Positions 1 through 3,612 of a DNA stretch of 64,000 nucleotides are shown piece by piece. Under the pieces are notes generated by a model. It made no database searches and had not been told where the DNA came from. It saw nothing but the letters and a program-made list of their open reading frames with translations. The stretch is from a virus. Within the stretch, counting starts at the first letter, position 1; every line of letters begins with the position of its first letter. The position numbers were made by a program, and so were the translations under genes. The DNA lies in IMG/VR virus record IMGVR_UViG_3300032087_003621, positions 1-64,000 of that record; one strand, given 5' to 3'.

Positions 1-1
1 A

Positions 2-1357
2 AACAAAGAGGCATTCTTTACTTTTGGAAGGATGAATCCTCCTACTATTGGTCATGGAAAGTTGATGTCAGTTCTTGCCACTAAGGCTGGACGTAACCCC
101 TATTATGTGTATCTTTCCCAATCTTCAGACCCAAAGAAGAATCCATTATCTTACGAACAGAAAATAAAACATGTTCGTAAAATGTTCCCAAAACATGCTC
201 GTAATGTTATTCTTGATAAGAAAGTTAGGAACACTTTCGACATTGCTGTAGCCCTCCACAATCAAGGATTTAATAGAATCACTATGGTTGTTGGTGCTGA
301 CCGCATTACTGAGTTTCAAACATTATTGAACAAATACAATGGTACCAAAGCGAGACACGGATTCTACAACTTTGAAAAGATTAACGTAGTATCTGCGGGT
401 GACCGTGACCCCGATGCTGAAGGTGTTGAGGGTATGTCTGCCTCCAAACAACGTGCGAATGTTGCGAATAATGATTTTACTACATTCTCACAGGGCGTAC
501 CATCATCAATGTCTGACAGAGACGCTAAGCGTCTTTTCAATGACCTTCGTGTTGGAATGGGTTTGAAAGAAACCAAAGAATTTAAGAATCACGTCGATTT
601 AGGTGTTGTTTCTGAAACCAGAGAAAAGTATATCGCTGGTGAGTTATTCCAGCCTGGTGACAGAGTTCTTGTAAAAGATACGATGAAAGAAGGTGAGATT
701 TATCGTCTGGGCACAAACTATGTTATTGTAGCATTAGATGAAGGTAGAGTAACACGCCAATGGTTGGACGGTATTGAATTAATTGAATCGAATCAACCTG
801 AATGGGGAACTCCTGCATCTACTAAGAAGGCGAAGAAGATTACGCCTAACGAAGAAACCGATACTCCGCAAGACAAAGAGATTGGTAAGAGAAAGGGAAC
901 ACAACCTGCTCGTTATCACAAAGGTTTATCTAAGGCGCAGAAGATTGCTAGAGACCGTCAGTTTAAGAGACAGTCTAAGATGGACGATGATGACCCTAAC
1001 GCATACAAACCTGCGCCAGGCGATAAGACCACAGAAACCAAGCCTTCCAAGTATACCAAAGCATACAACAAAATGTTTGGTGAAAAATTCCGTAGAGACG
1101 ATGAAGTTTCTTCTGTTAGAAAAGTTATCAATCGTGAACTGGACGCTGATAAGATTCGTCACGATAGAATGATTGATAGGGCTAGGATTACCAAAGCAAG
1201 AAGACAGGCACGAGAAACGAATCCACGAAAAGAAAGTACGAAAAATCCTGTTGCTAAGTTTGCACACAAGTTTAATAAAGCGACTGTTCATACAGACAAG
1301 AAGAAAGCCACTAAAAAAGGTTATGTTAAACATAAGGGTAAAAACAATGAAGTTTAA
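2..1357 (+). CDS. Cytidylyltransferase-like nucleotidyltransferase, 5' end outside window
   Basis: The reading frame is open from the first bases. An ATG lies at 32, but the codons before it complete the nucleotidyltransferase motif (AFFTFGRMNPPTIGH), so the true start lies upstream and this gene is partial. The motif is the (H/T)xGH nucleotide-binding signature of the NMNAT/cytidylyltransferase superfamily, so the first ~190 residues probably transfer a nucleotidyl group; the substrate is unknown. A small beta-rich segment follows (VTRQWLDGIE near residue 250), then a highly basic tail containing KPSKYTKAYNKMFGE, a module I recall from other marine T4-like phage proteins. It overlaps the next gene by 11 bases. 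The basic tail and neighbours suggest a DNA-associated, head-packaged protein; that is inference. Confidence 0.8.
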   Translation, partial: NKEAFFTFGRMNPPTIGHGKLMSVLATKAGRNPYYVYLSQSSDPKKNPLSYEQKIKHVRKMFPKHARNVILDKKVRNTFDIAVALHNQGFNRITMVVGADRITEFQTLLNKYNGTKARHGFYNFEKINVVSAGDRDPDAEGVEGMSASKQRANVANNDFTTFSQGVPSSMSDRDAKRLFNDLRVGMGLKETKEFKNHVDLGVVSETREKYIAGELFQPGDRVLVKDTMKEGEIYRLGTNYVIVALDEGRVTRQWLDGIELIESNQPEWGTPASTKKAKKITPNEETDTPQDKEIGKRKGTQPARYHKGLSKAQKIARDRQFKRQSKMDDDDPNAYKPAPGDKTTETKPSKYTKAYNKMFGEKFRRDDEVSSVRKVINRELDADKIRHDRMIDRARITKARRQARETNPRKESTKNPVAKFAHKFNKATVHTDKKKATKKGYVKHKGKNNEV

Positions 1358-1574
1358 AGATTACGTGATTACCGAAGACGCTCTCGCAGACAAAGCTGCG
1401 AAGTCTGGTATTTCAAGGGCAACATTAAAAAAAGTTTATGACCGTGGTGTTGCTGCATGGAAAACGGGCCATCGTCCAGGCACTACTCCACAACAATGGG
1501 GATATGCTAGGGTCAATGCGTTTATTGTTAAAAAGAAGAAAGGTGGTCTCAATCACGATAAAGATTTGGCGTAA
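1347..1574 (+). CDS. Small DUF5824-like protein with capsid-targeting-like N-terminus
   Basis: A 75-residue protein. I chose the ATG at 1347 over the much longer upstream extension, because the extension is only a shadow of the previous gene and the N-terminus MKFKDYVITE matches the style of T4 capsid-targeting peptides. The rest (SGISRATLKKVYDRGVAAW, then GHRPGTTPQQWGYARVNAF) is a compact helical domain I associate with DUF5824, common in marine myophages, of unknown biochemical function. It overlaps the upstream gene and sits in the putative internal-protein block. Cleavage after VITE by the prohead protease would leave a basic ~65-residue domain. Confidence 0.75.
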   Translation: MKFKDYVITEDALADKAAKSGISRATLKKVYDRGVAAWKTGHRPGTTPQQWGYARVNAFIVKKKKGGLNHDKDLA

Positions 1575-1588: not shown

Positions 1589-3208
1589 ATGAACATTAAA
1601 AAAGAATCTCTTAAAGTTAGACAAAAAGATTTTAAGAACGCAGCAAAACACGTTGCGGGAACTTATATCGAGAAAGGAAACTTTAAGAAAGTCATGGACC
1701 TTTTAAAATTTTTAGGGAAAAAAGTTACTGTGGATAAATCCGACATTTCAAAAGCGACCTACACATTTGAACAGTTTCGTGGAAAACTTGACGAGAAGTC
1801 AGTATCGAAACAACAGCAAAAGTTTATGGGTATGGTTCGTGCTGTGCAGAAAGGTGAAATGGACGCACCTTCTCCCGAAGTTGCTCAAGCAGCTAAGACG
1901 ATGAAGAAAAAGGATGTCAAAGATTTTGCAAAGACAAAACACAAAGGTCTTCCTGATAAAGTAAAAGAAGCAACCGACCAAGTAAATCAAGATTTTCCTA
2001 ACACGCTTGAGTCACTTGATGAAACAACCATCAAAGATATCAAAGACATTCTGACAACTATCGGTTCATCTAAGAACATGGACCAAGCAGTTCAGATGGT
2101 GATGAAGAAGTATAAGGTTCCTCAAGGTCAAGCAAAGGCGATGGTCAAGAAGGCAATCGATTCTGGTGTCACATACGACAAGATTAAGAAGAAGTATGCA
2201 AAAGAATCAGTCGAACTTGATGAAGCAACCAGAGTGTCTCGTAAAGATTTTGACAAGCTCAAGAAAGGTTCCATGATTACAATCGATTATGGTTCTGGCA
2301 TTAGAGGTAGCACTAAACGTACCTTCATGGTGAAAGGTAAATCACGCAGTGCAAAGTACAACGTTGATAAGGTCAATATGGTTGACCCCAATAAGCCTGG
2401 TGGAATGAAGTTCCATCTTTATAGTCGAGATGGTGAAGACGCAACCCTCGCATTGGGTGATATGGGAGCGACTATCAATTCCTACAGCATCAAAGAGTCA
2501 ATCGAAGAAAAAAGAGATGCTGGTAAGTCTGCGACTGGATATGACATCTATCACGATACGTATTCTGCGGCAATGCAACACGCATATGCCCATGCTAAGA
2601 AGAAACATGGTGTAACTGTTCGTCCTGATGAAATCGATAGTAAAGTCGCATCAGGCCCAAGAAAACCTTCGACTGGCAAAACCGTATCGCATATTCTCAA
2701 GACAGACAAGAAACAGAACCTTCACGTTCAAGTGTACAACACAGGTCGCAAGTACGAGTTGAATATGTACGTTGAGTCGGTCAACGAAGCATCGAAGGTT
2801 CCCGCAGGAATGAAATTTATTGCTTCCTATGTTTACAAGGATGCGAATGGTAAAGACCACACTCACACACATCTCCGTAAAGGCAAAAAGATGACTGACC
2901 CCGTTGTTGTGCACATTGACGGGAAAGAGTGGAAAACCTTTCAATCATTTACCAAAGCAAAGCAGGCTGCGATTAGTCATATCAAGTCAATGAATGAATC
3001 AGTCGAACTTGATGAAGCAAACGCTATTGACCTTGCACGTGATGTTGTTAAGAACAAAGGTGCAAAGAAAGGTCTGGACATGCAGACTGCTAACGCAATC
3101 TTGACTGTATATGATAAAGTCAATGATGCAAACAAAAAGAAAATGGAAAAGATGCCTGTTGCTAAGTTGGCATCAGCGGTATGGAAAATCTTAGGGAAAG
3201 CTAAGTGA
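1589..3208 (+). CDS. Modular polyprotein with repeated ELDEA-type protease sites
   Basis: 539 residues, very Lys-rich, built of small unrelated modules. Residues 70-127 (SVSKQQQKFMGMVRAVQKGE through DFAKTKHKGLP) match DUF3008. The later modules are about 146-206, 214-302, 310-395, 401-470 and 477-539. Their joints carry short similar linkers: KLDE at 66-69, ESLDE at 141-145, ESVELDEA at 206-213, ESIEE at 303-307, ESVNEA at 396-401 and ESVELDEA at 471-477. Hydrophobic-x-Glu is the cleavage signature of the T4 prohead protease gp21, so I infer a head-packaged precursor cut into several peptides. Each module resembles stand-alone domains I recall from other marine T4-like phages; none has a known activity. 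It overlaps the next gene by 4 bases. Confidence 0.7.
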   Translation: MNIKKESLKVRQKDFKNAAKHVAGTYIEKGNFKKVMDLLKFLGKKVTVDKSDISKATYTFEQFRGKLDEKSVSKQQQKFMGMVRAVQKGEMDAPSPEVAQAAKTMKKKDVKDFAKTKHKGLPDKVKEATDQVNQDFPNTLESLDETTIKDIKDILTTIGSSKNMDQAVQMVMKKYKVPQGQAKAMVKKAIDSGVTYDKIKKKYAKESVELDEATRVSRKDFDKLKKGSMITIDYGSGIRGSTKRTFMVKGKSRSAKYNVDKVNMVDPNKPGGMKFHLYSRDGEDATLALGDMGATINSYSIKESIEEKRDAGKSATGYDIYHDTYSAAMQHAYAHAKKKHGVTVRPDEIDSKVASGPRKPSTGKTVSHILKTDKKQNLHVQVYNTGRKYELNMYVESVNEASKVPAGMKFIASYVYKDANGKDHTHTHLRKGKKMTDPVVVHIDGKEWKTFQSFTKAKQAAISHIKSMNESVELDEANAIDLARDVVKNKGAKKGLDMQTANAILTVYDKVNDANKKKMEKMPVAKLASAVWKILGKAK

Positions 3209-3612
3209 AAACATTTAAGGCATTTATTAACGAAGCGTGTTGCGACGATTGTCGTGAACCCGACTTTGATGCCGAACCAGAGTTCGCTTTGTTCGAAGGT
3301 AGAAACGTTCCTCTTGAACGACCTATGTTTGAAGAGGCGCAACCTGAGTTGAACAAACCAAAGGCAGGTGGTCCTAAAAAGTATTACGTATATGTCAAGG
3401 ACCCCTCAACGGGTAACATTAAGAAAGTTACTTGGGGAGATACTACAGGGTTAAAGGTTAAGTTGAATGACCCTAAAGCCCGTAAGTCGTTTGCTGCGAG
3501 ACATAAGTGTTCGCAACAGAATGATAAGACAACGGCAGCCTATTGGGCGTGTCGTTTACCTCGTTATGCAAAACAATTAGGATTGAGTGGTGGTGGAAAC
3601 TACTTCTGGTAA
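3205..3612 (+). CDS. Capsid-targeted-type protein with DUF5872-like C-terminal domain
   Basis: 135 residues. The N-terminus MKTFKAFINEA closely resembles the T4 capsid-targeting peptide (MKTYQEFIAEA), with the expected protease cut after INE. An acidic linker with two CxxC-like Cys (CCDDC) follows. The C-terminal half (KKVTWGDTTGLKVKLNDP, then RKSFAARHKCSQQ and YWACRLPRYA) is a small basic domain I recall as DUF5872, frequent in T4-like phages. The start ATGA overlaps the stop of the polyprotein gene. A head-internal, DNA-co-injected protein is inferred from the targeting peptide and position; function unknown. Confidence 0.75.
   Translation: MKTFKAFINEACCDDCREPDFDAEPEFALFEGRNVPLERPMFEEAQPELNKPKAGGPKKYYVYVKDPSTGNIKKVTWGDTTGLKVKLNDPKARKSFAARHKCSQQNDKTTAAYWACRLPRYAKQLGLSGGGNYFW

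Follow-up and report, generated by a model that had tools for sequence, protein, structure and literature searches.

Exchangeable modules bordered by prohead-protease-type sites in a predicted viral head polyprotein

Introduction

Several phages are known to process proteins inside the head. The small T4 protein IPI inhibits host restriction enzymes once injected, and in phiKZ, 201phi2-1 and SPN3US the prohead protease cuts at x-x-Glu (S/A-x-E in phiKZ) (PMC9026906). P1 DarA and DdrB are likewise processed and carried in the head (PMC5512222). Here we compare with these systems a protein of 539 residues, P0001, encoded by a marine T4-like phage near the start of a 64,000-nucleotide window (positions 1 to 64,000 of the 146,377-bp IMG/VR virus record IMGVR_UViG_3300032087_003621, whose window coordinates are used below unless stated). 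The borders of its modules coincide with prohead-protease-type sites, the modules are exchangeable and a gp21-type protease is present in the genome. From this we infer that P0001 is probably made as a precursor, a chain of small basic modules, that enters the prohead core, where this protease cuts it at [L/I/V]-x-Glu.

Results

Linkers in P0001

Short linkers of one style recur along P0001 (a slash marks the putative cut throughout). Compared with 20,000 residue shuffles of the protein, the pattern ES[VIL](EL)?[DNE]E is found five times against a mean of 0.002 per shuffle, [LIV]xE[AGST] six times against 1.2 (P 0.0007) and LDE four times against 0.08. Bare [ILVMF]xE shows no excess (9 versus 6 expected, P 0.12), so that the signal comes from how the linkers are built and where they stand, not from the tripeptide alone. 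The linkers named in the original prediction, which was made from the sequence alone, are all present: KLDE at E69, ESLDE at E145, ESVELDEA at E212 and again at E476, ESIEE at E307 and ESVNEA at E400. Its five cut positions hold, and E69 and E127, which bracket module B, have to be added to them. Five of the resulting seven sites have Leu or Ile at the third residue before the cut (P3); the other two have Val, which lies outside the L/I-x-E rule of T4. The two ESVELDEA linkers (2204-2227 and 2996-3019), already noticed as identical in protein, are identical in DNA as well (24/24 nt) between unrelated flanks. Among relatives, linker copies within the same protein are alike at 20.0 of 21 nt, versus 18.4 of 21 between phages; this hints that recombination or a recent duplication took place at the linkers.

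Shuffling of modules among relatives

Four IMG/VR scans baited with P0001 and its relatives yielded some 240 loci (handles beginning with L). A near-identical copy of P0001 is present in contig L002; no phage record spans 80% of the protein, and matches come module by module. All module fragments together did not align correctly in MAFFT, and the modules were aligned one by one. The relatives divide the chain into modules A to G plus a micro-module of 18 residues, so the protein is indeed modular, as had been proposed, yet with more than the "at least five" units counted then. Hidden Markov models (HMMs) of modules B-G revealed 19 different combinations and orders within single proteins, including BCDEFG (P0001), DEFC, DC, ED, EDG, DEG, GE, FE, BE and DEFB. 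Modules also stand alone: E in L011, L020 and L021, G in L007, and B in cyanophage S-SCSM1 and in bacteria. Modules D and E are also carried by the cultured methylophage Melnitz (MZ577097), with IDE/M ahead of D and MDE/A ahead of E. Across these shuffled relatives the linkers are kept at the module borders, the outcome that the original prediction had looked for, and the homologues lacking conserved linkers that would have spoken against it were not encountered.

Residues at borders called without the motif

Borders were also called independently of any motif, at the points where local alignments among 118 non-redundant relatives stop; this gave 535 borders with at least three alignment ends each, around which residues within 6 aa were counted. 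Glu is 2.2-fold richer near these borders, and Asp is not. [LI]xE occurs 242 times versus 86 expected (z 17, an upper bound, as are all such scores here, since the relatives are not independent), VxE 138 versus 39 and LDE 60 versus 18; [LIV]xE as a whole is enriched about threefold. The Asp counterpart [LIV]xD is not enriched (58 versus 86 expected), nor are LDD (0) and LDK (4 versus 3). An acidic spacer would be blind to the choice between Glu and Asp; the T4 prohead protease is not, since the IPIII targeting sequence is not processed once its position 10 is Asp (PMC9026906).

Sites upstream of modules and at the ends of leaders

The same preference appears when single modules are followed through different contexts. 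Upstream of module B, [LIVMF]xE is present in all 42 distinct sequences; 26 copies have unrelated upstream regions, and all 26 show Leu, Ile or Val at P3 and Glu directly before the cut (P1), with Lys and then Ala or Ser after it, whereas identity in the remaining upstream columns is low. Bacterial DUF3008 proteins and S-SCSM1 ORF93 start with MPA[VK]SK exactly at the module B cut point. Sites lie just upstream of module D in 25/25 copies, G in 15/15, E in 47/53 and F in 7/10, compared with 29% of random windows. Downstream of module B, [LIVM]xE falls at most 9 aa past KHKGLP in 30 of the 40 relatives' ends listed, three of which are not module B. The Pfam profile PF11450 scores 19.7 bits on module B of P0001, below its gathering cut-off of 24; it reaches 47.8 bits on the homologous module in L196 and 27 bits on S-PM2 p146.

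Modules B, D and E also directly follow N-terminal peptides resembling capsid-targeting sequences (CTS). Module E is preceded by MRDFFELREA/RNAGKSATGYDIYH in L020 and MKSFKELRE/GKNDYSLYH in L011, versus ESIEE/KRDAGKSATGYDIYH in P0001, and module B by VKLSDLRE/KAVSKQQQ in L030, versus KLDE/KSVSKQQQ. An internal linker thus stands where, on the same module elsewhere, an N-terminal leader ends. Leaders of the form MKxFxxLRE or MKxFxxFIxE are found on neighbouring genes and on many relatives. Some are internal: in L004 and L012, module B is followed by MKTFKQFQEG or MKTFREMREG, and in L007 ISFFSLRE stands before module E. The cases of L004 and L012 suggest that the chains arose by fusion of genes for capsid-targeted proteins, whose leaders were then shortened to the cleavage site. 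The internal MKTF... leaders of L004 (3995-4624) and L012 (3995-4540) are in frame, have AAAGG upstream and could be internal starts giving separate proteins.

Protease and head genes

A gp21 prohead protease of the S77 type is encoded at G000:101054-101485 (PF03420, E 3.7e-44), and S77 proteases were found in 9 of the 12 large relatives. The genome also has gp22 and gp23 genes, gp22 being assigned by place and composition and not by profile. Where T4 gp23 is cut at LTE/A, the aligned gp23 here reads LNE/V, and the relatives have LTE, LSE, LAE, LNE, LME or LKE; since these sites are L-x-E throughout, the protease of this family is expected to use L-x-E. A 69-aa gene beside gp21 (MKNFKEIREA..., gp68-like position) was considered as a relative of module F and set aside, having no BLASTP or HMM support.

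Predicted products

Cuts at E69, E145, E212, E307, E400 and E476 would give seven fragments with computed masses of 6.8-10.5 kDa and isoelectric points (pI) of 9.2-10.0, sizes within the range of the T4 internal proteins; a cut at E127 would free the 18-aa ATDQVNQDFPNTLESLDE from the second of them. AlphaFold2 predicts with moderate confidence compact folds for module D (mean predicted local distance difference test, pLDDT, 76, both linkers below 50) and module E (mean 78, linker below 50), that is, folded modules between disordered linkers. Foldseek searches of both against the PDB gave best E-values of 0.14-0.22 and indicated no function, and Pfam and PHROGs scans of P0001 returned the DUF3008-like module only, with no enzymatic signature. 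D and E have no PDB relatives, and the label "effector" would be an analogy with T4 IPI. One PDB sequence match of P0001, to LmuC (E 0.003), covers a weak lysine-rich helix stretch and was taken as chance.

Gene neighbourhood and virion proteins

The features of the locus are collected in Table 1. The gene cluster of P0001 has several members with CTS-like leaders (the NMNAT-like protein, a KWDG-motif protein and the ORF at 3205-3612).

Table 1. Position of P0001, its modules, its candidate cleavage sites and neighbouring open reading frames (ORFs) in the window.
Feature	Position	Strand	Remarks
NMNAT/cytidylyltransferase-like neighbour	1..1357	+	N-terminus lies outside the window; CTS-like leader MIPSFKQFLVEE in L002
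75-aa ORF	1347..1574	+	CTS-like leader MKFKDYVITE/D, read from sequence
P0001, predicted head polyprotein	1589..3208	+	modular chain; open frame, 539 aa
Module A, aa 1-69	1589..1795	+	8.0 kDa, pI 9.8; ends FRGKLDE; homologues in L005, L012, L017 with different neighbours
Site KLDE/K, after E69	1784..1795	+	[LIV]-x-E/K[AS] directly before module B, 26/26 copies with divergent upstreams
Module B, aa 70-127, DUF3008-like	1796..1969	+	VSKQQQKFMGM...KHKGLP; PF11450 match; stand-alone in bacteria and S-SCSM1 ORF93
Site KVKE/A (PDKVKE/A), after E127	1958..1972	+	Val at P3; closes module B; absent from the original prediction
Micro-module ATDQVNQDFPNTLESLDE, aa 128-145	1970..2023	+	18 aa; recurs between two sites, with other neighbours, in L015
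Site ESLDE/T, after E145	2009..2023	+	shuffle and border statistics; ETLDE/A in L090 and L092
Module C, aa 146-212	2024..2224	+	C-terminal in L090 and L092, after ETLDE/A
Site ESVELDE/A, after E212	2204..2227	+	[LIVMF]xE upstream of module D, 25/25 copies
Module D, aa 213-307	2225..2509	+	predicted compact alpha+beta domain; begins N-terminal proteins in L090, L092, L118
Site ESIEE/K, after E307	2495..2509	+	shuffle statistics and upstream-site comparison
Module E, aa 308-400	2510..2788	+	predicted alpha+beta domain; stand-alone with CTS-like leaders in L011, L020, L021
Site ESVNE/A, after E400	2774..2791	+	Val at P3; ESVELDE/A or ESVELNE/A in L005, L006, L007, L015
Module F, aa 401-476	2789..3016	+	homologues in L003, L004, L015, L171, L172, L196 with other neighbours
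Site ESVELDE/A, after E476	2996..3019	+	[LIVMF]xE upstream of module G, 15/15 copies
Module G, aa 477-539	3017..3205	+	separate 66-aa gene in L007; elsewhere internal or C-terminal
135-aa ORF	3205..3612	+	CTS-like leader MKTFKAFINE/A
Cupin-like small ORF, PF07883	3587-3850		same cluster

The NMNAT-like neighbour is a modular chain too, with C-terminal DUF5824-like and DUF7230 segments, and in several cyanophages it belongs to the virion. Upstream of the NMNAT gene, relatives conserve the gene of the KWDG-motif protein, of 407 aa (L086 9805-11028; record 144805-146028), with a CTS-like leader MKTLSDFLTEQ and a KxDG motif (VSVKWDGAPAIF) as in nucleotidyltransferase/ligase enzymes. The T4 late-promoter octamer TATAAATA lies at 1575-1582, 14 bp before the P0001 ORF. 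Its seven copies in the window are all on the plus strand, mostly just before ORF starts; this count is not above chance (7 versus 4.6) and is not used as evidence.

Homologues of the cluster are known from cyanophage particles. The S-SCSM1 record annotates ORFs 89-93 of the corresponding cluster, including the NMNAT (ORF91) and the stand-alone module B (ORF93), as proteins of the virion, and its paper reports mass spectrometry (MS) of virions (PMC9602691); virion MS of S-CREM2 detected the NMNAT (ORF154) together with ORFs 155, 156 and 160 (PMC10665884). According to the authors of cyanophage virion MS, highly expressed proteins may persist in CsCl-purified phage. The virion protein ORF160 of the cultured cyanophage S-CREM2 (L253 7343-8236) shows the same layout of modules and [LI]xE (GINE, KLSE/A, NLEE/K, EISE/G).

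Discussion

The linkers of P0001 are real, conserved and Glu-specific; they stay at the borders while the modules shuffle, in the same place as the ends of leaders. We propose that P0001 would enter the prohead core as a single chain and be cut after [L/I/V]-x-Glu between its modules by the gp21-type prohead protease, freeing seven small proteins and the 18-aa peptide inside the head. These pieces would then pass with the DNA into the host and, as T4 IPI does, might act there early in infection. Sequence comparison supports packaging and cutting well; delivery with the DNA is inferred, and action as injected effectors is a guess by analogy with IPI.

Several observations weigh against this proposal. 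The weakest point is Val at P3 of the sites at E127 and E400, which is absent from the gp23 sites of the family; Val at P3 is common at module borders. The N-terminus of P0001, MNIKKESLKVRQ, is no clear or canonical capsid-targeting sequence (of the MKTYQEFIAE kind); its homologue in L005 starts MKSFKES. No [LIVMF]xE stands just upstream of 6 of the 53 module E and 3 of the 10 module F copies, and LxE is also found inside proteins at places other than borders. In the contigs of 3 of the 12 large relatives, possibly fragments, no S77 protease was found. The relatives, fetched by bait, are not a fully independent set, and the virion MS support comes from cyanophage homologues, none of them a close full-length relative of P0001.

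Some of the same features could be read differently. P0001 might be a scaffold-like protein of the prohead core, packaged and cut into pieces that are mostly waste leaving the head, its modules serving assembly and not the host. T4 gp22 and other core proteins (gp67, gp68) are indeed cut by gp21 into many fragments, most of which exit (PMC9026906), and P0001 is lysine-rich with modules lacking an enzymatic signature. We regard this as unlikely: conserved folds that shuffle, vanish or become separate genes do not resemble an essential core, and the genome already has its own gp22. Moreover, the stand-alone module B is kept in mature S-SCSM1 virions, according to its annotation as a virion protein in the record with the MS paper, and a DUF3008 gene occurs in bacteria outside a phage context.

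It is less probable still that P0001 is a multidomain late protein that stays uncut, with the ES..DE linkers serving as flexible acidic connectors or as recombination seeds for module exchange. The 24-nt identity of the ESVELDEA pair, the greater likeness of linker DNA within proteins and the predicted disorder of the linkers would suit it, but the border enrichment in Glu and not in Asp would not, nor would the coincidence of the sites with the ends of N-terminal leaders; conservation of only P3 and P1 upstream of module B is unexpected for a DNA-level seed. The internal leaders after module B and before module E raise another reading, in which once-separate capsid-targeted genes were joined by loss of stop codons and the sites are leftover leaders, maybe still cut. 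As a full account we find this very hard to credit, since P3 and Glu are kept over wide divergence and usually only the last 5-8 residues remain, without the targeting half, which suggests selection acting on the cut site by itself. Such fusion is compatible with a cleaved precursor as its origin.

If P0001 is such a cleaved precursor, the T4 internal-protein system would gain a polyprotein strategy, used by abundant marine phages; this would explain many "hypothetical" mosaic phage proteins, including those with DUF3008, DUF5824, DUF5872 and DUF6321. A simple reading rule, to cut after [LIV]-x-Glu, would split mosaic proteins into candidate injected proteins, for example anti-defence factors, and the cargo injected by these phages would become testable from existing cyanophage virion MS data. 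More tentatively, and here we stop just short of an even bet, a large class of aquatic T4-like phages may deliver small, early-acting proteins in sets, each made as a single polyprotein that is targeted to the prohead and whose protease sites double as joints for swapping cassettes, so that recombination at the linkers changes the injected set while one packaging event is kept.

In the open-licence literature we found no description of a prohead-protease polyprotein in T4-like or marine phages. To that extent the novelty claimed in the original prediction stands, although the principle of capsid targeting and gp21 cleavage is already known from T4. Polyvalent proteins (Iyer et al., 2017; PMC5512222), in whose description cyanophages are not mentioned, are also multidomain phage proteins delivered with DNA, and were likened to polyproteins by their authors. 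However, their domains are enzymatic, often with an embedded peptidase, whereas the modules of P0001 have 60-95 aa, are no known enzymes and would be cut apart in trans by the prohead protease; the several enzymatic or conflict domains that characterize polyvalent proteins did not appear in the Pfam and PHROGs scans of P0001. In phiKZ, 201phi2-1 and SPN3US many head and ejected proteins are cut after Glu and some propeptides have multiple sites (PMC9026906), but the extra sites are described as redundancy in propeptide removal and not as separators of functional modules. T4 gp22 and gp67 are, as predicted for P0001, single chains with several gp21 cuts; their fragments mostly exit the head, whereas those of P0001 correspond to conserved, separately inherited domains. 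The closest likeness is to the T4 internal proteins IPI, IPII and IPIII and to Alt, small basic prohead-targeted proteins cleaved at L/I-x-E by an S77 protease, and the genes next to P0001 bear comparable MKxFxxF(I/L)xE leaders. Each of these T4 genes encodes a single module that is cut once (twice in Alt), whereas P0001 has up to seven sites and modules that shuffle between phages; what is new here is this chained and shuffled form.
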